Shown here piece by piece: positions 3,080 to 64,000 of a DNA stretch of 64,000 nt. Origin of the DNA: Candidatus Omnitrophota bacterium. Lineage in GTDB: Bacteria; Hinthialibacterota; Hinthialibacteria; Hinthialibacterales; JAKPRU01. The first letter of the stretch is position 1. Every line of letters starts with the position of its first letter. The stretch covers positions 6,323 through 70,322 of the forward strand of contig JAKQSI010000033.1 of assembly GCA_029570205.1 (NCBI GenBank), read 5' to 3'. The notes below the pieces were generated by a model. The model was not told where the DNA came from and did no database searches. It saw nothing but the letters and a program-made list of their open reading frames with translations. A program made the translations under genes and the position numbers.

Positions 3080-3163
3080 GGCAATGTCTCCTATCCTCTT
3101 CTTATCACAGTATACCGCACATCTCTGGATTCGGCCTCGCCAGGAAAGTCCGTTGACACCGAT

Positions 3164-4702
3164 TCAGTCCATTATCCGGTAGATCGCGCCGTCTTGACAT
3201 TGTCGGATTGTCTCCAACACAAAGATATCCCGAATCTCATCCAGATTGTAGATGTAGTCTTTACGACCGGCATTGAACCACACGAGATAATTGGATCCGT
3301 CTGTAGACATCTTCGCCTTGAATTCTTCTATCGTCTCCGCGCGAAACGGACTCATGACGGCAGACTGATCGGCGAATATATACAGAACATCCGCCGCGTT
3401 GCTGAATATCTTTCCTTCGATCGGTTCTTGCCGGATCACCCGGAGCAATTCCGACTCTCTCCATGTCTTGTGGCTGTATCCCCCGGCACCGTATGTGCAA
3501 TGATAAATCGCTTTGTCATGGACCCGATAGGCCGTGTACCCTATCCAATACAACGATAATGATACAAGGAGAATCGAAATAATGGTTCTTCGGCCCCGGT
3601 TCCGATAATAATTGAACAGATCATCTACCGACTTGATAAACAGAAAGACCACAAACGGATATATCGGGGACAGGATACGATCGGCTATCCGATCAAAACA
3701 GACCATTGTGGCAAGGGCGACTACCGCAACAATATAAACACAGGTGAACAGGACGATGACAGGAACCTGCACATCGCGAACAGGCGATTCTCTGTCTTTC
3801 CATATAGAGCGCAAGACATGGAACCCGGCGGCTCCCCCGAACAGCATCAGAAGGATTTTCCTGACCCAGGAAGGAATCTCAACAGGAAAAAACCAGATAC
3901 TGATAACATTCAACATGTCATTGAGGTTCTGATAGCAGGTGTACTGCGAGGAGATGCGAAATCCCGTTAAAGTGGATGTGAGTATATAATTCCGGGCCAG
4001 ATACAGACCTAGTGGGAAACAAGAGACGACAAAAAAACCGGCGGACAGCGCCATTCTCTTTCGGAGAGATGAATTCGGCCAGTACGCAATGATGATCGCC
4101 GAAATCGCGAATGCCAGCATGACACCGATGTATCGCTGCAAGCAGGTTAGAGCGGTCAACAGGGATACTGCAAGCAGGAGCCACATACTCCGGCGACGGA
4201 AACAGGAGGGAATCAAAAGAATCGTAAGCAAGACCAGGACAATAAACAAAGACTCGCTCAGCAGCCATATCGAGGCGGAAAGCAGCGGAATCGCCCCACT
4301 CGAAACAAAAAGCGCGAGCAGAAGAAGCCATCGGGACCGACAGTGGCGGCGAATGATCTCCCCGCTGCAAAACAGAATGACCGCAAGAAGGAGCGCGTGC
4401 AGGACTCTAACTCCCGGCAGCAGGGGGATTGACGCAAGACTCAGAAGAGCCAATACGCCCGCATAAAGCGGAGGCCACAGCACAAGTGGAGAGCCGGTAT
4501 GGCAAAGAAGACCTTTCCCTTCGGCCAGGTTCCTGGCCGCAGAAATGTAATAGATTGAATCAGGATATAATCCTATGCCGTATTTGGACGTATAGAGCCA
4601 CACGAGAGCGGCTCCCACCGCGCCGAAAAGGAGATAGAACCACCATTCGATGGGGAACTCAAAGGCTCGATTTCGATCTCCTGTTTGTTCTTGCTTCTTC
4701 AT
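3164..4702 (-). CDS. PMT/ArnT-like GT-C membrane glycosyltransferase, copy 1
   Basis: 512 residues, with about 10-12 hydrophobic segments. The N-terminal region has the GT-C hallmarks: an acidic pair in the first outer loop (YPDSIYYISAARNLAEGKGL, about residues 47-66) and the downstream PPLYAGVLAL after the second segment. Such enzymes transfer a sugar from a polyprenyl-phosphate donor to a lipid or protein on the outer side of the inner membrane. The C-terminal soluble part ends in FVLETIRQCQDGAIYRIMD. It is a tandem paralogue of the gene at 4939-6481, with very similar N- and C-termini (LEL/LETIR.CQDGAIYRI). It sits among sugar-activation genes (GHMP kinase, CMP-sugar synthetase). Acceptor and donor are unknown. 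Confidence 0.85.
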   Translation of the reverse strand: MKKQEQTGDRNRAFEFPIEWWFYLLFGAVGAALVWLYTSKYGIGLYPDSIYYISAARNLAEGKGLLCHTGSPLVLWPPLYAGVLALLSLASIPLLPGVRVLHALLLAVILFCSGEIIRRHCRSRWLLLLALFVSSGAIPLLSASIWLLSESLFIVLVLLTILLIPSCFRRRSMWLLLAVSLLTALTCLQRYIGVMLAFAISAIIIAYWPNSSLRKRMALSAGFFVVSCFPLGLYLARNYILTSTLTGFRISSQYTCYQNLNDMLNVISIWFFPVEIPSWVRKILLMLFGGAAGFHVLRSIWKDRESPVRDVQVPVIVLFTCVYIVAVVALATMVCFDRIADRILSPIYPFVVFLFIKSVDDLFNYYRNRGRRTIISILLVSLSLYWIGYTAYRVHDKAIYHCTYGAGGYSHKTWRESELLRVIRQEPIEGKIFSNAADVLYIFADQSAVMSPFRAETIEEFKAKMSTDGSNYLVWFNAGRKDYIYNLDEIRDIFVLETIRQCQDGAIYRIMD

Positions 4703-4938
4703 GACAGTGTCCCTTTGATCGGTTGCTCCTCAGCAAAATGTCTCAAGACTCGATTGGCATAATCCAAATCTCCAATTCAAGAAGAAGCGAATCTTGTATG
4801 CCGCATATCCTTCGGACCGATCCGGGCAGGAGATTCTGCGTATATCGGACGGTTGTGCCGTCGGGCGTGGCCGGTTGCCGTGTGGATAGGACATGCAAAT
4901 AGACCTCAAGGAACGTTGCGGCGCCAATCGCAGGCGAT

Positions 4939-6481
4939 TCAGTCCCTGATCCGGTAGATCGCGCCATCTTGACATTCCCGGATCAACTCCAAGGCAAAAA
5001 TGCTTTGGATTTCATCCAAATTGTAGATGTAGTCTTTGCGACAGGCATCAAACCACACCAGGTAATTGGGTCCGTCTTTTGATAGTTTTTCTCTGAATTC
5101 CTCTATCGTTTCCGCACGGAATGGTCCCATGGTCGCCGGGCGATCGGTAAAAATGTACATAATATCCGCTGCATTACTGAATATCTTGCCTTGGATCGGC
5201 TCGCGTTGAATAACCCGAATCATATCCGATTCTTTCCACCTCTCGATGTTGTATTCCCCTGTGCCGCATTTGCGATGATGAACAACTTTCCCATGAATAT
5301 GGGGGATCATGTACCCCATCCAACAGAACGATAATGCCACAAGGAAGATGGAAACCACCGTCTTTTGGAGTCGGACGTGAGAGTAATGACCGAGCAGGTC
5401 GTCCGCCGACTTGACGAACAGGAACACCACAAATACGTAGATAGGCAACAAGAAACGGTTGGCTATGCGCTGGAAAGCAACCGTCGTGGAAAGGGCAACC
5501 AGCGTCAGAATGTAAATCCAGGTGAACAGTGCCATGACCGGAACCTGCACGTCTCGCGTGGGTGATCTTCGGCCTTGCCATATCTTGTAAAGGATGTGGA
5601 TTCCGGCGGCTCCCCCGAACAGCAACAGAAGGACTTCCCGAATCCATAAAGGAATCTCAACAGGTATAAACCAGATGCTGATTCCATCCAACAGGTAGTG
5701 GATGTTATCATAGAGTGTATTCGGTGATGAACCCCGATATCCGGTCAGGGTGGATGTAAGCATGTAATTTCGAATCAGATACAATACCAATGGGAAACAA
5801 GAAACGATGAGGAAACCGACCGAGAGCACGACTCTCTTTCGCCGGGATGATTCCGGCCAATACGCGAGAATGATCGCCGAAATAGTGAGAGCCAGTGTCA
5901 CACCTATATAGCGCTGCAAACAGAACAGAGCCGTCAAGAGGGATACCGCGAGCAATCGCCGGATGCTTTGTCGGCGAAAGCACGAGGGAATCAAAAGAAC
6001 CGTGAGCAACAGCAAAACAATAAAGAGAGGTTCGCTCCACATACATATCGAAATGGAGACCAGCGAATACGATACGCTCAGCATAAAAATCGCGAACAAG
6101 ACAAGCCATCGGGACCGGCAATGACGGCGGAATATCTCCCCGCTGCAGAAAAGAATCACCGCGAAAAGGATTGCGTGGATGACCCGGGCTCCCGATGGAA
6201 TGGGGATCGATGCGAGACTCAGAAGAGCCAGCAGGCACGCATAGAGCGGGGGCCATGAAACCTGCGGTATCCCGTCATACTCGACAAGACCGTTCCCATC
6301 GGCGAGGTTATTTGCTGCGGAAATGTAATGGATGGAATCCGCGGTCAATCCGATGCCGTATTTGGATGTGGAGAGCCACATTATGGTGATTCCCACCATG
6401 CCAAAGAGGAGAAAAAAAATACCACTCTATCGGGATAGCGAATATTCGCTTCCCATCTTCTGTTTTGTCTTGTTCCTTCAT
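4939..6481 (-). CDS. PMT/ArnT-like GT-C membrane glycosyltransferase, copy 2, frameshifted near the start
   Basis: From 6399 downwards the frame encodes 486 residues closely parallel to copy 1 (STSKYGIGLTADSIHYISAA). The expected first 22-23 residues (MKEQDKTEDGKRIFAIPIEW then YFF) lie upstream in another frame, beginning at the ATG at 6481. The break is a homopolymer, eight A at 6412-6419 (T on the coding strand). Removing one base gives IEWYFFLLFGMVGITIMW, which matches IEWWFYLLFGAVGAALVW of copy 1 perfectly in register. This is therefore either a one-base assembly or sequencing error, a real pseudogene, or slippage. Apart from this the gene is complete, with the acidic pair in the first loop. 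Donor and acceptor are unknown. Confidence 0.85.
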
Positions 6482-14684: not shown

Positions 14685-16580
14685 ATGGATCGTCAGACTT
14701 GTTACGGCAGGGCATGTCGGTTTTATGTAGTTTTGGTATTTGCGAGCCTGGTGTTGGTGGGGCAGGCAATGGCGCAAGAGCCGTTACGCGGACCGTCGGG
14801 GGAAATTCTCATTGGTTTGGGAACGCTTGAGTATGCGGCATACTCGCCCGACGGTAAACACATCGCGACGTGCGGTAGCGCGGGTGCGTTTCTCTGGGAT
14901 GTTGAAACCGGCACGGCGATTCGGATGTTTTCGGGAGGTATGGGTTCGGGATATTGTATAGTTTTTTCGCCGGATGGAAAGAAAGTCTTGATGGGGAGGG
15001 GGAATGGGACCTCGAGTTTATGGGATACGGGCACAGGGGCATTGATTCAGACGTTTTCGGGGCACGGGTTTAGCGTCTATTCCGTAGCGTTTTCCCCGGA
15101 CGGGACGAAGGTGTTGACGGGGAATGGGGATGGGACAGCGAGTTTGTGGGATGTGAGCACAGGGGCGGTAATCCGGACGTTTTCGGGGCACAGTGATGGG
15201 GTTCTTTCCGTAACGTTTTCGCCGGATGGGACGAAGGTGTTGACGGGGAGTTACGATAACACAGCGAAGTTGTGGGATGCGGGCACCGGGACGTTGATTC
15301 GGACGTTTTCGGGGCACGAGAGCAGTGTCAGATCTGTGGCGTTTTCCCCGGATGGGACCAAGGTGTTGACGGGGGGTTGGGATAAGACAGCGAAGTTGTG
15401 GGATGCGGACACAGGGACGTTGATTCGGACGTTTTCGGGGCACGGGTTTAGCGTCAATTCCGTAGTGTTTTCCCCGGATGGGACGAAGGTGTTAACGGGG
15501 AGCGCCGATTATACGGCGAAGTTGTGGGACGCGAGCGCGGGGGCGTTGATTCGGACGTTTTCGGGGCACGGGAGTGGCGTCAGATCCGTGGCGTTTTCCC
15601 CGGATGGGACAAAGGTGCTGACAGCGAGTTGGGATGATACGGCGAAGTTGTGGGATGCGGGCACAGGGACGGTAATCCGGGCGTTTTTGGGGCACACGGA
15701 TTGGGTTAATTCCGCGGCGTTTTCCCCGGACGGGACCAAGGTGTTGACGGGGAGTTACGATAATACAGCGAAATTGTGGGATTCGGGCACAGGGAGGTTG
15801 ATTCGAACATTTTCGGGGCACGGGAGCAGCGTCACTTCCATAGCGTTTTCCCCGGATGGGACGAAAGTCTTGACAGGGAGTGTGGATAAGACGGCAAAGA
15901 TGTGGGATGCGGAGACAGGGGCGGTAATCCGGACGTTTTCGGGGCACGAGGATGACGTCAGATCCGTAGCATTTTCCCCGGATGGGACGAAGGTCTTGAC
16001 AGGGAGCGTGGATAAGACGGCAAAGATATGGGATGCGGGCACAGAGACGGTAATCCGGACGTTTTCGGGGCACGAGAATTACGTCTATTCCGTGGCGTTT
16101 TCCCCGGATGGGACGAAGGTGTTAACGGGGAGTAAGGATAACACGGCGAAGCTGTGGGATGCGGGCACAGGGGCGGTAATTCAGACGTTTTCTGGGCATG
16201 GGATTGGCGTGTTTTCCGTAGCGTTTTCCCCGGATGGGACGAAGGTCTTGACAGGGAGTGAGGATAAGACGGCGAGTTTGTGGGATGCGGAAACGGGGGC
16301 GTTGATTCGGACTTTTTCGGGGCACGGCGAGGGTGTCAATTCCGTAGCGTTTTCCCCGGATGGGACGAAGGTGTTGACGGGGAGTTGGGATGGTACGGCG
16401 AAATTGTGGGATGTGGGCACAGGGGCGGTAATCCGGACGTTTTCGGGGTACATGGGCTACGTCGAATCCGTAGCGTTTTCCCCGGATGGGATGAAGGTGT
16501 TGACGGGAAGCGAGGATGGTACGGCCCGGATTTGGGATGTTAGTGAGTATGCGGATATTGAGCGGTGGGTAGTGTATTGA
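14685..16580 (+). CDS. Secreted WD40 protein with 14 near-identical repeats
   Basis: 631 residues from ATG 14685 (GGAGAGG upstream). A signal peptide (FYVVLVFASLVLVGQAMAQ) ends at about residue 30. Then come 14 WD40 units of 42 residues, with consensus SVAFSPDGTKVLTGS..TAKLWDAGTGAVIRTFSGH. Fourteen units fit two seven-bladed propellers. Units 3-13 are almost identical at DNA level with a period of 126 bases, which points to recent tandem duplication or conversion. Such exported propellers are protein-interaction scaffolds; no enzymatic site is seen. The C-terminus ends soon after the last blade. Long open frames on the opposite strand here are artefacts of the repeat. Confidence 0.9.
   Translation: MDRQTCYGRACRFYVVLVFASLVLVGQAMAQEPLRGPSGEILIGLGTLEYAAYSPDGKHIATCGSAGAFLWDVETGTAIRMFSGGMGSGYCIVFSPDGKKVLMGRGNGTSSLWDTGTGALIQTFSGHGFSVYSVAFSPDGTKVLTGNGDGTASLWDVSTGAVIRTFSGHSDGVLSVTFSPDGTKVLTGSYDNTAKLWDAGTGTLIRTFSGHESSVRSVAFSPDGTKVLTGGWDKTAKLWDADTGTLIRTFSGHGFSVNSVVFSPDGTKVLTGSADYTAKLWDASAGALIRTFSGHGSGVRSVAFSPDGTKVLTASWDDTAKLWDAGTGTVIRAFLGHTDWVNSAAFSPDGTKVLTGSYDNTAKLWDSGTGRLIRTFSGHGSSVTSIAFSPDGTKVLTGSVDKTAKMWDAETGAVIRTFSGHEDDVRSVAFSPDGTKVLTGSVDKTAKIWDAGTETVIRTFSGHENYVYSVAFSPDGTKVLTGSKDNTAKLWDAGTGAVIQTFSGHGIGVFSVAFSPDGTKVLTGSEDKTASLWDAETGALIRTFSGHGEGVNSVAFSPDGTKVLTGSWDGTAKLWDVGTGAVIRTFSGYMGYVESVAFSPDGMKVLTGSEDGTARIWDVSEYADIERWVVY
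15061..16500 (+). repeat. 126-bp tandem repeat encoding WD40 blades
   Basis: Starts of the GGGGCAC (Gly-His) segment recur at 126-base steps, for example at about 15060, 15186 and 15312. Each unit has the same skeleton GCGTTTTCCCCGGATGGGAC. Differences concentrate in the surface-loop codons, as expected for a protein repeat under rapid expansion and homogenisation. Confidence 0.85.
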
Positions 16581-19174: not shown

Positions 19175-19197
19175 AAGCAGGCTTCCTGCCCTTCTTT

Positions 19198-19566
19198 GCC
19201 AGGCAGAGACGCCTGGCCTACTGGGTAGCTGCCAGGCAGGGACGCCTGGCCTACTGGGTAGGACAGGCCTCCGTGCCTGTCAGGTCTTGATCTGCCAGGC
19301 AGAGACGCCTGGCCCACTGGGTAGCTGCCAGGCAGAGACGCCTGGCCCACTGGTAGGACAGGCCTCCGTGCCTGTCAGGTCTTGATCTGCCAGGCAGAGA
19401 CGCCTGGCCTACTGGGTAGCTGCCAGGCAGAGACGCCTGGCCTACTGGTAGGACAGGCCTCCGTGCCTGTCAGGTCTTGATCTGCCAGGCAGAGACGCCT
19501 GGCCTACTGGGTAGCTGCCAGGCAGAGACGCCTGGCCTACTGGTGGGACAGGCCTCCGTGCCTGTC
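19198..19566. repeat. Higher-order hairpin array: (A-A-B) repeated four times
   Basis: Twelve hairpins are present. A is GCCAGGC-AGAGAC-GCCTGGC and B is GACAGGC-CTCCGT-GCCTGTC, each with a perfect 7-bp stem. B copies start at 19262, 19357, 19452 and 19547, an exact 95-base period. Two A hairpins precede each B, separated by CTACTGGGTAGCT-type spacers. One of the first A copies has a GGGAC loop. The array lies upstream of the pseudopilin gene and has no coding signal of its own. It could act as a nucleoid-protein, gyrase or transcription-attenuation site in the manner of BIMEs, but that is inference. Confidence 0.9.
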
Positions 19567-19574
19567 GATGACCC

Positions 19575-31204: not shown

Positions 31205-31250
31205 TTGTGAGTTTCTCCCCCGAAGATCGGAGGAGGTCAGGTGCGGGTTG
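31205..31250 (-). repeat. E-family repeat, single hairpin copy
   Basis: Read on the minus strand, TCAACCCGCACCTGACCTCC then TCCGATCTTCGGGGGAGA. It matches the E copy at 32608-32642 closely. Confidence 0.5.
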
Positions 31251-32599: not shown

Positions 32600-32830
32600 T
32601 CCGGTCAACCCCCACCTCACCTCCCCCGATCTTCGGGGGAGGAACTTCTCTCCCAAAGTTTCTGGGAGACAGAGAGGGGGTTGTGCAGATCTTCACCCCA
32701 ATCACCGGCCCCGCTGGAGAGAGGCTCCTGAGAAAGCTCAGTCATCGACAGCACGGAGGCCTGTCCCATCGGTTTTCCAGGTCATGTCTCACCAGTTGGC
32801 CAGGCATCTCTGCCCGGCAAAATCGCCGCG
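32600..32830. repeat. Composite repeat: E hairpins, D, degenerate B, A
   Basis: From left to right: E hairpin CTCCCCCGA-TCT-TCGGGGGAG around 32622-32642; a second E hairpin TCTCCCA/TGGGAGA around 32650-32670; D module AATCACCGGCCCCGCTGGAG near 32700; CCTGAGAAAGCTC; a B hairpin missing one G (about 32747-32765); then A reversed, GCCAGGC-ATCTCT-GCCCGGC at 32799-32818. It lies in the gap before the DUF2723 gene and could also end transcription of the transporter gene. The gap 32545-32916 has no other gene. Confidence 0.75.
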
Positions 32831-41122: not shown

Positions 41123-44100
41123 ATGCGGATCAGCAAAAACCAAGGCTGTATACTTTTATTCATCGCGCTGGTTCCGGCCGCGCTCGGATCATCAGTTGGA
41201 TTGTGGATTCCAAGTCCTTTGCGGCTGCTGCTCACTTTTCTCTGGGTGACTGCGCCAATGGGCGATTTTGTTCTGCGGGCGGGGCACGGCAGAATCCCCT
41301 GGACAATCCGCCGGCCGATGGCCTGTCTCCTGGGATGGTGTATCGCCTCTGTTCTGGCATTGCTCCTGGCGTGCATCGGAGCAAACTGGCTGGTGTTCGG
41401 TATTTTACTGGGCTTGGGAAATGCCGCTGTCATCCTTTTTGAGAAAGAAGGCCGGACCGCAGACTCGCAGCGGATCCATGCCGGATTCTCCGCCCTGTCT
41501 GTTTTTCTCCTCCTGCTTACCGTGATTGCGCTTCTGTATGTATTGAATATGGGCGGGTTTATGGCGCAGGATGGGCGATATCATATCGGTTACATGCTCG
41601 AAGTGATTCAGCGGGGCGGGCCGGGAACTGCCCATCCGTTTCTGGATGGCGGCGATTATGATCCCCGGTATTCCGTTTCCTCCTACCATTCCGTTCTGGC
41701 GTTTTTGTCGGTATTTGCAAAGGTTCCGCATGACGAGGTGTGGTTTTACCTTCCGGCATTTTGGGTGATTCTTGCGGTGGGGGGCTGGCGGTTTTTTGGC
41801 CTCCGGGTGTTTGAGTCACGTCCTGTGGGGGACCTGTGCGCATCGTTCTTTCTTCTGCTTTCGCTGGTGGGCTATCCGGGCGGCCCGGGATTTCACGAGT
41901 TGCGGACCCTGGCGTACCCCGGCGGCATGGCGCTCCATATCCTCTTTCCGGCGTTGATTGCCTGGTCCTGGAACGGTATGCGGTTCCGGTGGGCGCAGGT
42001 TGTTATTCTATTGATTCTTGCGATCACCCTTGCCACGACTCATGTGTTCTATCTTCTTCTTGCTGTTCTGGTTCTCTGCTCCGGTTTCCTCGGATTTTTA
42101 ATTATGGGGGCGGATCGGAGCCGATTGCGGTTCATGGGGATTGAAGTCGGGATTATTCTTCTTTCGGCGGCTCCGGCGATTCTCTGGGGGATGATTCACT
42201 TTAAGGGAATTGAGAATTCCGCCTTTCTGTTCGATATCGAGTCCGGCATTCCGAATGACTATGCGGGCCATATTCTGTTGACCGGCGGAAATCTGTTTAT
42301 TTTAAAGCCGATCCGCTGGCTTACATTGACCGGGCTGAACGCCTGCCCCACCGGTGCGCCCGCGATTGCGCTCATCTTATTTGTTTTGTTCTGGACAAAG
42401 ATTCCACGGGAACCGCGCGCTTTCTTTGCGGGTGTTTTGGTGGTTGTGATCACCCTGATGTCTGTTCCGCCGCTGTTTGTCCTGGTGACCGGCATCATTA
42501 CGCTCTACAAGAGTTTTCGCCTTTTCCAGGCCTTGCCGGTAATTCCGCTATTGGCCGCCGGGACGCTCGCGTTGTCGGACTGGATTGTTCATATTCAGTG
42601 GAAGAATTCGCGCCACCATGGAGTCACTCGCAAGGTTGCTGCGCACGCTGAACCGATCACCCCCACCCTGCCCCTCCCCAGCCATGGGGAGAGGCTCTCC
42701 CCCAACATTGCGGGAGATACAGACCTGCAAGCCTCTCCCCCAAAGATTGGGGGAGACACAGAGGGGGTTGATCTCCTTCCTTCCCCTTCCTGGCTCTCTG
42801 TCGTCGTCTGCCTTGCGCTGTTTGTGATTGCTGTTCCCACATGCCGTACGCGTCTGTTGGAAGTCTACGGAACGTGGAAAAGTGTCAAACCATGGTGGAT
42901 TGAGCCATACCGGGATTTTACCGACCCGATCACGTTCCCTGCCCTGAAAGAGATCGCGTCAAGAGGATATGGCGGAACTGTCCTGGCCGAGCCGCAACCT
43001 GCCATGGCCTATTCGGCATTGTTCGGCGGGAAGGTTGTGGCCATCCCCAGTTTTCACGCTTCTCCGTCGGCAGCCGATATACCGGAACGGCTTGATACGG
43101 TGGATGCGTTCATGCGAGGTTGGCTGGCTCCACAGGAGGCCATTCGCAAATTGCAGCAATATCGGGTAGGCATGGCTTTCTTCCGCTGGTCTCACCTCAG
43201 CCCGCTTGGCGAAGCGGTGTTAGCCTCGTGCATGGAAGAAGAAATAATCATTCCACGTCTCGAACAATCTTCCCCATCCCCCATCCCCCATCCCCCATCC
43301 GCAATCCCTGATCCGCAATCGGCCTTCGCTCTGTTTCACCGACCGGATACGGGATACAAAAATCCCACACCGGTGTTTGTGGATATGGCGATCAAAGACG
43401 GTCAATCTTATCGGCTGAATCGGAACGGGGAGATTTGGGGACCGTCGAATGAGATTGTGGTTTCCGTGGCCTCCGGACTTCTGGAAGATACTGCGGAGCG
43501 GGTCGCAGGCAAGAGTGGGACAAATGAGACAGATGGGACCAACGAAAGAGAGGAATTCGAAGAGGATGCTGCAGAGCGGTTCTTGAGTACACCGGAAGGG
43601 TGGTTGATCGCAACTCGCGCAGGACGATTGTTAAGAGAAGACGGGACCAGGATCGACTTGTCTGATGTGGAAAAAAAGAAGTGGGAGAAACCCATCGGGA
43701 TATTGCCGTCGCCGGACCGGAAAAACATCTTGTTGCTTGGAAGCAATGGATGCTGGTGGAAAACGAGGGATGGAACCCTGGAGGATATATTACCCGACTG
43801 GAGAACCGCACCATTGTGCAGTGCCTGGCGAGACCCGCGCGGAGGCATTCTCTCTCTGAATATCCACGGTGGCGTCCTCTCGTTCGGCAAGACTTTCCTG
43901 AGCGAGAAAGGCTTTTCCCAAGTTCAGGCACAGTGGGGAGCGAGGGCGGGCAGTCTCGACATGGCAACAGACCTGGCCCTGGACCCATCGGGGTCCTGTC
44001 TTTATCTTCTGACACGAACCGGGGATGTCTACCGATGTGTTCCGGGATCCCCGCCCGCAATTTTTTGGCGGGTGGATCAACCTGCCCAGTCGATATGGCT

Positions 44101-44194
44101 TGCGATGGAATGTCACGGGAATGATATGCTTTTGATGGACTGCGCGGGGTATATACTCCGTATCCCCCTATCGAACGGGAGCACAGCCGGATGA
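41123..44194 (+). CDS. Very large polytopic membrane protein with C-terminal beta-propeller-like region and in-frame repeat inserts
   Basis: 1023 residues from ATG 41123; GTG 40982 would add 47 residues. The first half has about 13 membrane segments and an outer-loop block YHIGYMLEVIQRGGPGTAHP with YDPRYSVSSYHSVLAF, reminiscent of GT-C or YfhO-type glycosyltransferases. The second half is soluble and beta-rich (GWLIATRAGRLLREDGTRI; PSGSCLYLLTRTGDVYRC). Three low-complexity insertions interrupt it in frame: about residues 510-551 (E family), 716-735 (IPHPPSAIPDPQ) and 795-808 (SGTNETDGTNERE). Its stop overlaps the next start by ATGA. It opens a three-gene operon. Function is unknown; an envelope glycan transferase is possible. 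Confidence 0.75.
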   Translation: MRISKNQGCILLFIALVPAALGSSVGLWIPSPLRLLLTFLWVTAPMGDFVLRAGHGRIPWTIRRPMACLLGWCIASVLALLLACIGANWLVFGILLGLGNAAVILFEKEGRTADSQRIHAGFSALSVFLLLLTVIALLYVLNMGGFMAQDGRYHIGYMLEVIQRGGPGTAHPFLDGGDYDPRYSVSSYHSVLAFLSVFAKVPHDEVWFYLPAFWVILAVGGWRFFGLRVFESRPVGDLCASFFLLLSLVGYPGGPGFHELRTLAYPGGMALHILFPALIAWSWNGMRFRWAQVVILLILAITLATTHVFYLLLAVLVLCSGFLGFLIMGADRSRLRFMGIEVGIILLSAAPAILWGMIHFKGIENSAFLFDIESGIPNDYAGHILLTGGNLFILKPIRWLTLTGLNACPTGAPAIALILFVLFWTKIPREPRAFFAGVLVVVITLMSVPPLFVLVTGIITLYKSFRLFQALPVIPLLAAGTLALSDWIVHIQWKNSRHHGVTRKVAAHAEPITPTLPLPSHGERLSPNIAGDTDLQASPPKIGGDTEGVDLLPSPSWLSVVVCLALFVIAVPTCRTRLLEVYGTWKSVKPWWIEPYRDFTDPITFPALKEIASRGYGGTVLAEPQPAMAYSALFGGKVVAIPSFHASPSAADIPERLDTVDAFMRGWLAPQEAIRKLQQYRVGMAFFRWSHLSPLGEAVLASCMEEEIIIPRLEQSSPSPIPHPPSAIPDPQSAFALFHRPDTGYKNPTPVFVDMAIKDGQSYRLNRNGEIWGPSNEIVVSVASGLLEDTAERVAGKSGTNETDGTNEREEFEEDAAERFLSTPEGWLIATRAGRLLREDGTRIDLSDVEKKKWEKPIGILPSPDRKNILLLGSNGCWWKTRDGTLEDILPDWRTAPLCSAWRDPRGGILSLNIHGGVLSFGKTFLSEKGFSQVQAQWGARAGSLDMATDLALDPSGSCLYLLTRTGDVYRCVPGSPPAIFWRVDQPAQSIWLAMECHGNDMLLMDCAGYILRIPLSNGSTAG
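42651..42775 (+). repeat. E-family hairpin cluster inside the coding sequence at 41123-44194
   Basis: Three hairpins: CTCCCCA-GCCA-TGGGGAG, a weaker CTCCCCCAACATTGCGGGAG, and a perfect 10-bp stem TCTCCCCCAA-AGA-TTGGGGGAGA. They translate in frame to PLPSHGERLSPNIAGDTDLQ and onward, without stops. The insert falls in a loop between two membrane segments. Same family as 32620-32670. Confidence 0.8.
43265..43325 (+). repeat. CCCCCAT-type repeat inside coding sequence 41123-44194
   Basis: Several direct repeats of CCCCAT (CCCATCCCCCATCCCCCATC), then CCGCAATCCCTGATCCGCAA; encodes SPSPIPHPPSAIPDPQSAF. It reads as low-complexity insertion in a coding frame. Confidence 0.6.
43500..43560 (+). repeat. 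F-family repeat inside coding sequence 41123-44194
   Basis: AGTGGGACAAATGAGACAGA then TGGGACCAACG, coding for SGTNETDGTNERE. A matching non-coding copy is at 56844-56872 (TGGGACGGATGAGACGAATA, GGACCAATGG). Confidence 0.6.
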
Positions 44195-47100: not shown

Positions 47101-47292
47101 GAACAGGTAATAACGGAAACAAGGCAAAAGGTTACCGTTGCGCCACTGGCATGCGAGGTTTTCAATACCACACTCCCCATGCCTTCAACAGGCGGTCGGT
47201 ACTGGGCAGTCGTCTACCTGCACGATGAGTTGGGGAACCATCTTGATGCCGCTTATCTTGCGGATGATGTTCATGTAGAGGAAACAAGATGA
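44191..47292 (+). CDS. Large membrane protein with N-terminal carboxypeptidase-regulatory-like domain
   Basis: 1033 residues; it starts on an ATGA overlap with the preceding gene and ends on an ATGA overlap with the next. Signal-anchor at about residues 10-30 (LLLLAAVCGLFITPRVLQA). Residues 38-100 form a carboxypeptidase-regulatory-like fold (LKRIILEGKVVTADDQTPLN, then GSFHFGNVTFIPGIYQVRL). A first membrane segment is at about 290-310, and a second half with about 10 further segments runs to about residue 735, including a polar loop like PETVSLFLISATLAAWCF. The C-terminal part is soluble and beta-rich, containing ENSFLNSEIVNVALVERYEA. It has GT-C-like organisation; no enzyme motif is certain. 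Confidence 0.75.
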   Translation: MNRKRNRTWLRPLLLLAAVCGLFITPRVLQAETPIPLKRIILEGKVVTADDQTPLNRVHVAIYAGGDEPLAWEWTRADGSFHFGNVTFIPGIYQVRLRSDNQIIKDATAEISLPELAPGETPETLLTANRFLSAQGILKQEINQVIVDRVAEVTEQDKETVRKVMTALIDAVNNFYIRYPVTLTMEKVENLTLQTVDLRGSVRGLLGKSRLRGGVVRFLYRDYVIANPQTGADNKFVYEDVQVPLGTIKVVASDRFGLFQQAEKEYEITPETTVLEVEDLTCSLRLWVKAVGALIAGAVIWLIVHSRRSPPENHPPQTGTPAGDSNSPGEPFLLKIERGIDFLRPQVRRFRQRAARYWGRREDEIKETLIVSPWLWMHGGMCVVLLLWAGLQLYGHTIQAGGPLPAPEAGAVSHAQQLRDASTENDGELYENALQVPPDFAPFQVLIWSRVLAAARFNQTAWQCLHLALFCGAVLLTGLAVWALSQRAFRLPSGGTTAGLCASVLLLLCPGAIRYSCSLYPETVSLFLISATLAAWCFAGVTPWRPTLTLCSFLLGFVFLFHPTHGILVAVVLGIATLFRQRLSRSSLSDLLFLLLPAVVMVTVVSRIFLPETSQVTRAFLERGEHLGWFAGLVWCFERLVMDYSPYREAMAAILLLSGAMVWISPSRRVKGLAAGWAAGILTITLMSGKYWSSLLALLPVLALFPALAAEAAVSMTENRQRQSYAITIATLVFFAAPFTQAGTYQYPYSRAGKEWKVVLENLLPTIDLENGALIIGENSFLNSEIVNVALVERYEANLRKIYRPDFQGTIGSNGARIADASQTAQEIDRWLRNNLVGSVSAIELLPGHPLLNDNSFMQQEGWSQTWVNLLKSQPWWPETHTTVLDVEKVAIHTYKKLIEKTNIGYSRRLDTPYAGITDLSLLDDHGMYTVEVPAGSPIVAQARISNLLDSELRATIWWVISKRFSDRPYEQVITETRQKVTVAPLACEVFNTTLPMPSTGGRYWAVVYLHDELGNHLDAAYLADDVHVEETR

Positions 47293-49874
47293 CCGATACT
47301 TCCCTGCAAGATCAGAGTCCCGGATCTCCTGAGAAATCTCGCCCATCGACAGGCACAGAGGCCTGTCCCACCAGTGGGCCAGGCGTCTCTGCCCGGCAAG
47401 AAAGGGCCGGAAATGCGGTTTCCCTGTCAAATCACGGGAACCGTCGGTCTGCCGCTCGAAGCATCGACCTGTTCCTGTTGGTCATGGCGGGGATTTGCAT
47501 ACTGACTCTCTTGATCGGCGGAATCGATACGCAATGGGGGCGGATTCATTTCAGAATGCATGATCCGACACCGCTTTTTGTGCCGGTTCTGTTTCTGTAT
47601 TTGTTCCGTTTTTTGTTGATTAACGAGAAGTTTCCATTCGGCATGAACCTGAGCGATGAGGGACAATGGCGCGTTCGAGCGGCCTTGTTCTTTGCGCTCC
47701 TTCCGGTCTTGCGGTACTGGGATGTGCTGGGATTCGCACGAGTCGATTCTTTCTGGTCCGATGATGCTTTCGCTCTGTTTTATCCGCTGCGTGTTCTGCA
47801 TCATCGTGAAGGAGCCTTGTCGGTGATCCAATCGTGGAATCCATACGTGTCCGGCGGGTTTCCGAATGTGTCCGATCTTTCGACAGGATTCCTGTATCCG
47901 CTCAATGTCCTTTTTAGCCTTCTTCCCTACGAAGGCGGCCGGATGCCGTTCCGCGCGTTTGCCGCGCAGACACTCCTGCATCTCAGTCTGGCCGGATGGG
48001 GAACGGCGCTGTTTGCGCGACGGCTTGGGATCCGGCGTGGCGGCGCGTTGTTCGCCGGGATTGTGGTGCTTCTTTCGGGATTCCTGTCGGGACACAAAAT
48101 CCATTCTCCGGCAATCTGCTCATTCGCCTGGCTGCCCCTTCTGCTCTATTATTGGGATATCATTCTGGAACACGGCGTTCTCTGGAGCCGTAACCTTGTC
48201 TGGGCCTGTGTTTTGTTTGCGCTGATTCTATTTGCGGGCGACCTGGAAATGGCTCTCCTGGCAGGATTTCTCGCGGTTGCATGGATGATCTTCTGTAGAG
48301 AGCCTGAGTATCTCCGCAATGCCGTCATTGCGTTCTGTTTGATCGCCATGTTAGGTAGCCTGCTCGCCGGAATTGCCGTTGCGCCCCATATCGAGTACCT
48401 CGACAATGCAGACCGACTTATTCCAAGGTTCGCCTATGTAGCAGGTGGTTCGCTTCCGGTCCGTTTGCTGGCAACCGCGTTCGTGCCTGTGCTGCCGTCG
48501 CTCATAGTGCGGGATTACCGCGAGTTTTGCATCTATCTCGGCGCTTTCACTCCGGTTCTCCTCGGCCTGGCCTGCCTGCTCCGCCTTCGCGGAGCCATGG
48601 CGGGATTGCGATGGTTGCTCGTGATCTCTGTTTTGTTGATGCTGGGTGGAGCAAGCGGACTGTGGCGTGCCATGTATGCTTTCATCCCGCCGATCCGGTG
48701 GATTCATACACCGGCGCATTTCGGCTGGGCATGGTCCCTTACCGGATCGCTCCTGGCCGCTTATGGATTGGAGCGCCTTTCGGATTTGAGCCGGGAAGGT
48801 CGCGCCATGACAAAACGGACGCTGGCCGCCACGTCGGTTCTTTTCGGGATCGTGTGTCTGGTTGGCATTGCTGTGTTTGTGGTCCGAGGCGGAACAGGCT
48901 CCGATTTTTCCATCCCGGATGAGGTGGACCACCTTGCGGCAACCGCCTTCATCCTGGGATTGAATCTCTTGATCCTGTTTTTATGGTACCGGCGGACGAT
49001 TCGACGAAGGTCTTTCATTCTCCTGATTGTCACAGTCGCTGTCCTGGACCTCTCCGGTGATTATCTCGCCTTTGATACGGCCGGTGAGCCGGAAAATGTT
49101 TTGAACAACCAGCCCGCCGTTCTCAGTTGGTTCGAAAAACAAGAGCCGCCGTTCCGCGTATGTTTGAACAAGCAGGCGTTTGAAAACCTCGGTTTCTTTC
49201 GGCCCCTGGAAACTTTGGACGGTTACGGTGTACGCAGGCCCGCATCCATCGCCCGCCTGTCTCAGCATCTCTCTCAGGATCGGCTGTTGGATTTGCTCAA
49301 TGTCAGATGGGTGGTCGGCAAAGCGATGGATGATGCTCTCGGGCCGATCGTTCACCAGAAAGGAGATGCTGTCATTCAGGAAAACCTGGGTGCGCTGCCT
49401 CGCTATCGGGTTGTCTATCAGACAAAATGGGCCACACGGGAACGCCTGTATGAAGCAATCGAATCGTCTGACCCGGAACGGGTGACCGTGATCTCGGAAA
49501 GATACCGGAATATCCTGGAACCTCTGCTGAAAGGAATAAAAGCGCCGAAAAGCTCCCCTGATGCGGAAATCAAAATCCTGCAATATGATCCGAGGCACGA
49601 GGTAAGACTTCAGGTCGGGATGCCCGCCAAAGGCATTCTGATTGCCGCCGAGCCGGACCTGCCGTGCTGGAAAGCAAAGGTGGATGGGAAGCCGGTGACC
49701 ACATTTCCCGCCGATGGCGGTCTGCGCGGCACTGTAGTTCCATCCGGGCGTCATACCGTGGTGTACCAGTACACTCCCAGGGGTCTGTGGATCGGGTTGA
49801 TGCTGACTCTTCTCGGCGGATTTGTTTTGGTAGAGATCTTCCTGAGGACCCGAAGCAGGCCGACTGAACATTGA
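47289..49874 (+). CDS. YfhO-like polytopic membrane protein with repeat-derived N-terminal tail
   Basis: 861 residues, translationally coupled by ATGA to the previous gene. The first 54 residues (from about residue 7) are made of composite-repeat DNA: TGTEACPTSGPGVSARQERA is the B-A junction translated. From about residue 62 the family starts: membrane helices, FWSDDAFALFYPLRVLHH at about 157, VISFQSW-like SWNPYVSGGFPNVSDLSTGF, IRWIHTPAHFGWAWSLTGSL, and a final DLPCWKAKVDGKP with HTVVYQYTPRGLWIGLMLTL. YfhO proteins (PF09586) are implicated in lipoteichoic acid or polysaccharide glycosylation and possess a GT-C fold. With the two upstream genes this makes a putative envelope-glycan assembly. 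Confidence 0.82.
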   Translation: MTDTSLQDQSPGSPEKSRPSTGTEACPTSGPGVSARQERAGNAVSLSNHGNRRSAARSIDLFLLVMAGICILTLLIGGIDTQWGRIHFRMHDPTPLFVPVLFLYLFRFLLINEKFPFGMNLSDEGQWRVRAALFFALLPVLRYWDVLGFARVDSFWSDDAFALFYPLRVLHHREGALSVIQSWNPYVSGGFPNVSDLSTGFLYPLNVLFSLLPYEGGRMPFRAFAAQTLLHLSLAGWGTALFARRLGIRRGGALFAGIVVLLSGFLSGHKIHSPAICSFAWLPLLLYYWDIILEHGVLWSRNLVWACVLFALILFAGDLEMALLAGFLAVAWMIFCREPEYLRNAVIAFCLIAMLGSLLAGIAVAPHIEYLDNADRLIPRFAYVAGGSLPVRLLATAFVPVLPSLIVRDYREFCIYLGAFTPVLLGLACLLRLRGAMAGLRWLLVISVLLMLGGASGLWRAMYAFIPPIRWIHTPAHFGWAWSLTGSLLAAYGLERLSDLSREGRAMTKRTLAATSVLFGIVCLVGIAVFVVRGGTGSDFSIPDEVDHLAATAFILGLNLLILFLWYRRTIRRRSFILLIVTVAVLDLSGDYLAFDTAGEPENVLNNQPAVLSWFEKQEPPFRVCLNKQAFENLGFFRPLETLDGYGVRRPASIARLSQHLSQDRLLDLLNVRWVVGKAMDDALGPIVHQKGDAVIQENLGALPRYRVVYQTKWATRERLYEAIESSDPERVTVISERYRNILEPLLKGIKAPKSSPDAEIKILQYDPRHEVRLQVGMPAKGILIAAEPDLPCWKAKVDGKPVTTFPADGGLRGTVVPSGRHTVVYQYTPRGLWIGLMLTLLGGFVLVEIFLRTRSRPTEH
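47308..47455 (+). repeat. Composite C-B-A-D repeat inside a coding sequence
   Basis: Order is C-like AGTCCCGGATCTCCTGAGAAA, then CTCGCCCATC, hairpin B (GACAGGC-ACAGAG-GCCTGTC) at 47348-47367, hairpin A reversed (GCCAGGC-GTCTCT-GCCCGGC) at 47378-47397, then GGGCCGGAAATGCGGTTTCC and a D-like CAAATCACGGGAACCG. The same order is found intergenically at 52737-52925 and, reversed, at 19142-19625. Confidence 0.8.
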
Positions 49875-52618: not shown

Positions 52619-53200
52619 AGAGAAACCTCCTGAATGAATGAGGCGAATTGCCGATTTGTGACCTGCCGAGATTCCTCACTTCGTTCGGAATGACAACATG
52701 AATGGTGGCATTCTCTTTGTTCGAGCAAGCAAGCCTGAGATCGCCACGTCGCCGCCCTTCGCAGACTCCGGGCGGCTCCTCCTAAAAAGCTCGCCCATCG
52801 ACAGGCACAGAGGCCTGTCCCACCAGTAGGCCAGGCGTCTCTGCCTGGCAGAAAAAGCGCCTTGTCCCGTCATCGCGGTTCCGTGAGGTCATGCTTTCTT
52901 GTCCAGTCACCGGCCCCACCGGAGGAATGCTCGGAATGACACATTCCTGGCGTGTCGACCAAAGGGAGAAATCTCTTATATCTGTTCAGAAAGCCTTTCT
53001 TTGAGGCGGCTTAAATCCGATTCTCTCCCCTCATCCATCCTCAAGATCCACGGAAACCAGCCGATAACGATACTGCCACGGAGGGCCTTGTTTAATCCAG
53101 GATGGATGAATGCTATGTGGTCCGATCTGTGGCGCTCCGCATTGATCTGTGACCTCCATTGAGGTCGGTGCCCGAATCGTACCACCGATTGAGGGCTTCA
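52619..53200. other. 582-base gap holding the composite C-B-A-D element
   Basis: From left: a C-family copy reversed (CTTCGTTCGGAATGACAAC near 52679 as its right end; CGCCCTTCGCAGACTCCGG core near 52755), junction CTCCTAAAAAGCTCGCCCAT, hairpin B GACAGGC-ACAGAG-GCCTGTC at about 52799-52818, hairpin A reversed GCCAGGC-GTCTCT-GCCTGGC at about 52830-52850, and a D module near 52900-52925. The remaining bases to 53200 show no gene or strong motif. Confidence 0.7.
52660..52925. repeat. Most complete composite C-B-A-D repeat
   Basis: This copy has all four modules in order and in one orientation. It serves as the reference for the copies at 19142-19625 (reversed, with amplified A-A-B), 32696-32830 (D before B-A), 38689-38772 (A and B only) and 47308-47455 (in-frame). 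Confidence 0.75.
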
Positions 53201-56839: not shown

Positions 56840-57040
56840 AGATTGGGACGGATGAGACGAATAGGACCAATGGAGGTTGCCGGTTTTGATCGCCCTCACC
56901 CCGAGGCTCGACCGGCGAGAGCCGGAATCCAGGCCAAGGTAGATGGGTACGCAGCAGACCTCTGACAGGCAGGGACGCCTGTCCCTCCCGGACCGGAGAC
57001 CTCTGACAGGCAGGGACGCCTGTCCCTCCCGGACCGACCC
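56840..57040. repeat. F-family copy plus two 41-bp units with a hybrid hairpin
   Basis: An F copy lies at 56844-56872. Then CCCTCACCCCGAGGCT recurs at 56891 and 57039. Between them are two copies, period 41, of a unit starting GACCTCTGACAGGC at 56957 and 56998. Each has a hairpin GACAGGC-AGGGAC-GCCTGTC, which combines the B stem with an A-like loop. All this precedes the 3' end of the hydrogenase protease gene. Confidence 0.7.
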
Positions 57041-63651: not shown

Positions 63652-64000
63652 CATCGACAGGCACGGAGGCCTGTCCTACCGGTTACCTTCGACAGGCACG
63701 GAGGCCCGTCCTACCGGTTACCATCGACAGGCACGGAGGCCTGTCCTACCGGCTACCATCGACAGGCACGGAGGCCTGTCCTACCGGTTACCATCAACAG
63801 GCACGGAGGCCTGTCCTACCGGTTATTCCTTCCATCGACAGGCACGGAGGCCTGTCCTACCGGCTACCATCAACAGGCACGGAGGCCTGTCCTACCGGTT
63901 ACCATCAACAGGCACGGAGGCCTGTCCTACCGGCTACCATCAACAGGCACGGAGGCCTGTCCTACCGGCTACCATCAACAGGCACGGAGGCCTGTCCTAC
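63652..64000. repeat. 35-bp tandem array of B hairpins (at least ten copies, runs off the window)
   Basis: The unit is CATCGACAGGCACGGAGGCC then TGTCCTACCGGTTAC, 35 bases. Variants CATCAACAGGC and CTACCGGCTAC are interspersed, and one unit has an extra ATTCCTTC after copy five. Each unit has hairpin GACAGGC-ACGGAG-GCCTGTC (GACA or AACA in the stem). There are no unique spacers, so this is not a CRISPR array. The array starts 38 bases upstream of the HndB-like start codon, where the operon promoter would be expected. Confidence 0.9.

Follow-up and report, generated by a model that had tools for sequence, protein, structure and literature searches.

A short palindromic repeat residing in frame in a membrane-protein gene and in other genes of a Candidatus Omnitrophota genome

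Introduction

How does a single membrane-protein gene come to carry three repetitive segments in one unbroken reading frame? The gene lies at positions 41123 to 44194 of a 64,000-nucleotide stretch of Candidatus Omnitrophota DNA (contig JAKQSI010000033.1), referred to below as the window, and the initial annotation proposed that three dispersed repeats, here named E, CCCCATC and F, are translated within it. In-frame invasion of proteins by palindromic sequences is documented mainly in Rickettsia, isolated instances involving REPs being known from Opitutus, Xanthomonas and elsewhere. The source genome of the window (G000; 4.39 Mb, 131 contigs, 93% complete) was compared with those of two sister species of the same genus, G001 and G002, all three being metagenome-assembled genomes (MAGs). 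We estimate at roughly 85% the probability that E is a short, non-autonomous, REP/MITE-like palindrome that has spread through the genus and is tolerated in genes at loops and linkers. On the best reading of the data, the gene in the window is one such E host, tolerance being attributed to its inter-helix loop and to its C-terminal linkers.

Results

The repeat-bearing gene

The gene is encoded on the forward strand, as are all features located within it, and runs from an ATG at 41123 to a stop at 44194 (1023 aa), with a single open frame spanning the E, CCCCATC and F segments. The protein has about 11 transmembrane-like segments followed by a C-terminal half rich in strands. No Pfam match was obtained for the protein, and an AlphaFold model built on a three-sequence alignment was discarded because of its mean pLDDT of 31. 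Orthologues were found only in G002 (92.8% nucleotide identity) and G001 (81%), both of the same genus; no outgroup orthologue that would show an E-free state of this gene was found. A 1033-aa gene and then a YfhO-like gene follow downstream. Elsewhere in the window, twelve tandem 126-nt units (42 codons) of 64-81% identity at 14832-16580 look like WD-repeat coding sequence, and a probable tandem gene duplication at 3160-6417 comprises two long stretches of 73-76% identity at a spacing of about 1775 nt.

The E segment is an intact, in-frame composite palindrome of 119 nt (42655-42773, residues ~511-550). Its outer stem is formed by 42655-42664 (GATCA.CCCCC) and 42763-42773, which pairs with it as GGGGGTTGATC, and within it lie a hairpin (42673-42694), a degenerate E1 unit (42696-42723; model match C113:49018-49045) and an intact E1 unit, SPPKIGGDTEGVD (42732-42775; model match C113:49054-49097). 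The segment folds as a single composite palindrome (z -5.45; none of 200 shuffles was as stable), its ends pairing with each other and enclosing the inner hairpins. Hydropathy places the E region (residues 498-556) between transmembrane-like segments at 467-485 and 556-574, in agreement with the inter-helix loop position first assigned to it. The composite is common to G000 and G002, and G001 has a shorter two-hairpin version without the left end; the gain of E in this gene is therefore undatable within the genus. Going by the three sequences, E would either have entered before the genus split or have been reshaped since.

The second segment is an in-frame array of 5.3 copies of the 7-nt unit CCCCATC (43272-43308, about residues 717-729, in the segment at ~716-735). 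In both sister species, a degenerate array of 7-nt units of the CCCAATC/CCCCAGT type occupies the same place at equal length, and for this reason the CCCCATC array is not an insertion. It had also been described as a repeat found in non-coding DNA, but a genome-wide search located no second CCCCATC array, this form being confined to the one gene. A related heptamer, CC(C/G)CA(A/G)T, is dispersed in the genome (40 overlapping matches at about 25 sites), and the 30 heptamer loci examined were classified as non-coding.

The third segment, F, is a minisatellite with the 9-nt unit GGGACNNAT (GTNETDGT) and a core at 43517-43539 (residues ~797-809). It lies in a 78-nt segment (26 aa; 43474-43551) that is present in this species only and missing in G001 and G002. 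The segment is flanked by an imperfect 27-nt duplication, of which the first copy (43475-43501) is an imperfect repeat of the second (43552-43579), the latter matching the orthologues; the local alignment score of 27 was reached or exceeded by 1 of 2000 random window pairs. Genome-wide, F gives 25 matches at about 22 sites against none in the control, bearing out its recurrence outside the gene. The sole other copy in the window (56845-56867, forward strand; 0.04 expected) is intergenic, and all copies examined outside the gene were classified as non-coding. F is the only clean difference among the three orthologues and may reflect a single gain in this species or a loss in each of the two sisters. 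It may have been inserted recently, with duplication of a 27-nt target; loss in the sisters by recombination between the flanks is also possible, as the two flank copies have diverged from one another further than the orthologues have. An insert-free state in orthologues, by which gain was to be recognized, was seen for F alone, E and the 7-nt array being present in both sisters, and of the three dispersed repeats initially proposed to be in frame, E and F stand, while the CCCCATC segment is an old local array and not an insert.

The E family and its distribution

In the E1 unit the hairpin reads CTCCCCC(A)AAGATTGGGGGAG and ACACAGAGGGGGTTGA comes after it; in the E2 unit the hairpin is CTCCCCCGAAGATCGGGGGAG, with GTCAGGTGGGGGTTGA after it. 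The hairpin is perfect, 20-21 nt long and carries an GGGGGTTGA tail, the whole unit measuring 39-45 nt. Head-to-head pairing of units is frequent (TCAACCCCC...GGGGGTTGA) and gives composites of about 90-120 nt. One such composite of E2 and E1, TCAACCCCC...GGGGGTTG, is intergenic in the window (32604-32690, no strand assigned; fold z -4.08), and an E2-type hairpin lies on the forward strand at 31215-31235, upstream of an ORF starting at about 31351. No chance matches to the hairpin core are expected in the window, and the copies initially reported at 31215 and 32621 are real.

E is dispersed throughout the genome: 114 strand matches were obtained at up to two mismatches, against none in a reversed control, and a covariance-model search gave 152 matches at E≤1. 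From these, 130 matches representing 106 sites were classified in six frames with an ORF and codon model that required coding sequence on both sides in the same frame, so that the recurrence of E, proposed from the window, now extends to 106 sites genome-wide, that in the membrane-protein gene included. The codon-model filter can miss in-gene cases (one MutL unit failed it), and reads through E from upstream of a start codon (e.g., L180, L196, L198, L202, L205, L211, and L213) were not counted as in-gene. A fixed-pattern search, which is blind to the hairpin variant of 20 nt, pointed to almost no in-gene copies; the covariance model took its place. E is abundant in all three members of the genus. 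Within a second family of the order, certain genomes have it sparsely or in variant form, and at up to one mismatch it is absent from the other class members searched. In an outgroup genome with an E-free MutL linker, two E-like hairpins lie just 3' of mutL (G004:C31:49440 and 49549, L124).

E units inside genes

Fourteen of the 106 sites lie inside genes, in frame and in both orientations, and about 92 are intergenic; the unrelated host genes of this genome thus number at least 14. The 14 hosts are the membrane-protein gene of the window, mutL, an AddB-like gene, bpsA, hypF, an hpnE-like gene and eight others; the AddB-like label rests on UvrD and PD-(D/E)XK domains, that of hypF on a PDB match, and that of the hpnE-like gene on sequence motifs judged by eye. 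The proposal that dispersed palindromes are translated in frame, as in Rickettsia, proved right for E, with E-free orthologues at several of these 14 sites. Genes are strongly depleted of E, 14 of 106 sites comparing with the ~84% of the window that lies in long ORFs (binomial p ~1e-49 against 0.8). The in-gene sites are E1 in 13 of 14 cases, and E2 is found in genes at none of 23 sites (Fisher p 0.015, with type assignment being rough). Of the five open frames of E1, four or more are in use, and no case employs the frame with the built-in TGA. A peptide-only search had seen one frame and would have suggested a false preference, which the six-frame classification corrected; as to the frame preference that the initial annotation had suggested counting, no single frame is preferred, several being used. 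The in-gene copies retain the full hairpin and the GGGGGTTGA tail of the intergenic ones, and in the membrane-protein gene also the outer stem. If E-coded sequence is indeed translated, peptides spanning SPKIGGDTEGVE junctions would be expected.

Filled and E-free homologues

In several genes, E-free orthologues or homologues of solved structure reveal the insertion directly. In BpsA, the insert amounts to 42 aa in G000 and 30 aa in G002 and is absent from G001 and five outgroup genera; to either side of it the sequences align flush. Against PDB 2qm3, query residues 173 to 229 face chain residues 191 to 198, 55 query residues standing in place of 6. In the AlphaFold model, the insert (182-225) has a pLDDT of 24-31 and forms the longest low-confidence stretch, between a helix and a strand, the core being mostly at ~80; the insert is accordingly modelled as a disordered loop in an otherwise mostly confident core. 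HypF shows about 25 extra residues in the linker after the zinc fingers when compared with 3vth (query 80 to 114 vs chain 200 to 209); the outgroups are without E at this site, and G001 carries yet another repeat there. The interdomain linker of MutL holds three E units in G000, two in G002 and three in G001, and none in nine outgroup MutLs. A gene at G002:C1133 has E in G002 only, being E-free in G000, G001, G005, and G006, and in a glycosyltransferase gene G001 has several E units, G002 a single one and G000 a remnant.

The contrast between filled and empty sites bears on the improbable alternative that the inserts are local expansions or gene conversions of low-complexity linkers, their likeness to intergenic copies reflecting convergence or conversion. 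Local expansion is a good account of the 7-nt array, equal in length in the relatives, and a plausible one of F, with its always frame-neutral 9-nt unit and duplicated flanks. As an account of E it is opposed by the full hairpin and tail, and the outer stem, of the in-gene copies described above, and by the E-free state of the bpsA and G002:C1133 sites in sister species. That the inserts are artefacts of metagenome assembly or binning is hardly credible: all three genomes are MAGs, but they are independent, their samples bear different names, and despite a nucleotide divergence of 7-19% they have filled sites in common in which the frames are open.

At some sites, the repeat differs between species. 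One site in the AddB-like gene is filled by E in G000 and G002 and by a different palindrome, CTCTCCCGGAGGGAGAG, in G001. In an O-antigen-ligase-like gene, one site is occupied by E in G001 and by two other palindromes in G000, whereas G002 has almost nothing there. Judging from these alignments, some protein positions may be recurrent landing sites at which unrelated palindrome families independently occupy the same residue position across species, a suggestion to which we give slightly less than even odds. If it is correct, the membrane-protein gene, which holds two simple repeats besides E, would illustrate it in extreme form, and the turnover of repeats from many families would steadily supply the lineage with new protein loops.

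Another explanation, which we consider unlikely, is that the E peptides have been adopted as flexible linkers or interaction motifs, or that the hairpin regulates the mRNA, and that selection maintains them. Persistence at the same site across species in mutL, a 1178-aa gene and the AddB-like gene would agree with adoption, as would the still foldable hairpins of the membrane-protein gene. Against this, the copy number and sequence of E vary between sisters at each site, the AddB-like gene of G001 has a different palindrome at the E site, bpsA of G001 does without the insert, and the host proteins have no function in common.

Other palindromes and Y1 transposases

E is not the only palindrome found in frame in the window. 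A non-E palindrome, GACAGGCACAGAGGCCTGTC, lies at 47321-47403 (forward strand) near the N-terminus of the YfhO-like gene (47289-49874); the insert is common to G002, and G001 is without the palindrome (MTATPLQACNPRTRSIDLFLLV). A close copy is intergenic at 52773-52855, and related arrays occur at 19197-19572 and 63652-64000. A further family, translated as LTPTLSRRERG, is in frame in several ORFs (L317, L323, L208, L204, and L258), sometimes beside E.

Three Y1 transposase genes (PF01797) were identified, L117 (G000:C89), L116 (C51) and L118 (C48), each flanked by its own palindrome family, and these loci are candidate RAYT-REP systems. L117 is accompanied by 19 hairpins of the GACAGGCCTCCGTGCCTGTC family, which is also the family in frame in the YfhO-like gene of the window. 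E flanks none of the three Y1 genes of this 93% complete MAG, to which the search was confined, so that no transposase flanked by E was found; no target-site duplication was identified for E.

Discussion

Spread and tolerance of E

The reading of E as a tolerated mobile palindrome implies the following course. E would spread through the genomes of the genus mainly into intergenic DNA, and a copy arriving in a gene would survive only where the frame is kept and a loop or interdomain linker is hit. With only such insertions surviving, a minority of the sites (the 14 in genes) would persist as translated inserts of 10-45 aa. The F minisatellite and the 7-nt array of the membrane-protein gene would be of a different kind, simple repeats grown or captured at tolerant linkers. 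E presumably moves by transposition or by HUH/RAYT-type copying; the latter is plausible because the genome has Y1 transposases flanked by their own palindromes, albeit none linked to E. The inserts are presumably near-neutral, and the E-containing host proteins are probably made.

In-frame residence of palindromes recurs here in an uncultured lineage with many hosts, including conserved enzymes with solved homologues (BpsA and HypF) and a mismatch-repair protein. Filled and E-free orthologues lend themselves to direct comparison, which makes the neutrality of the inserts, an old question, testable enzyme by enzyme. In practical terms, the case shows how annotation and homology searches in metagenome-derived genomes can be led astray by repeats that are translated.

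Comparison with known systems

Heptamer repeats resembling those dispersed in this genome are known as the G-rich repeats GGGGA(C/T)T of Nostoc and GGGAATC of Xanthomonas (PMC4692102). The CC(C/G)CA(A/G)T arrays include the complement of GGGGATT/GGGGACT, but they are mixed with CCGCAAT units, and the CCCCATC form is restricted to the membrane-protein gene.

Among palindromes, the Rickettsia palindromic elements (RPEs) are known from intergenic DNA and, in frame, from 19 reading frames of Rickettsia (Ogata et al. 2000, reviewed in PMC2229807). Like E, they form hairpins, lie partly between genes and partly in frame within a wide range of unrelated proteins, many of these conserved, and are apparently tolerated (PMC2229807); E folds stably, as seen from the z-scores of -5.45 and -4.08 for the composites in the membrane-protein gene and at 32604-32690. 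RPEs are 105-146 bp in length, as compared to the 39-45 nt of an E unit and the roughly 90-120 nt of its composites. The host of E is a Candidatus Omnitrophota and not a Rickettsia, the E consensus is different, and genes, in some cases single sites, are shared here by several unrelated repeat families.

Intragenic REPs have been described in several genomes, many of them in repair genes, with differing REPs near the same recB site of two Xanthomonas species (PMC3733652). The intragenic GTAG/CGTC REPs of Opitutus terrae, R. conorii and Xanthomonas recB share with E hairpins of 20-40 nt, head-to-head dimers, a high copy number, a mostly intergenic location with a subset in ORFs (where the REPs encode 20-30 aa) and repair-gene hosts (PMC3733652). 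The AddB-like gene, with different palindromes at one site, likewise parallels the Xanthomonas recB case. That E itself belongs to the RPE families of Rickettsia or to the GTAG/CGTC REP superfamilies is nevertheless very improbable. The life style is the same, palindromic, mostly intergenic and sometimes in frame, with repair genes among the hosts (PMC3733652, PMC2229807), but the consensus E units are without a GTAG or CGTC end tag, the aligned copies carrying an GGGGGTTGA tail instead, and both unit and tail differ. Moreover, Rfam gave no match at gathering score for the window and two host loci, and no RAYT linked to E was found. E also resembles the BIME composites of REPs, in both of which the orientation of the hairpins alternates, but the ends of an E composite pair mutually (TCAACCCCC/GGGGGTTGA), which is more MITE-like. 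By these comparisons, E works in the manner of RPEs and intragenic REPs, the repeat family, the host lineage and the mixture of families within a gene being what is new.
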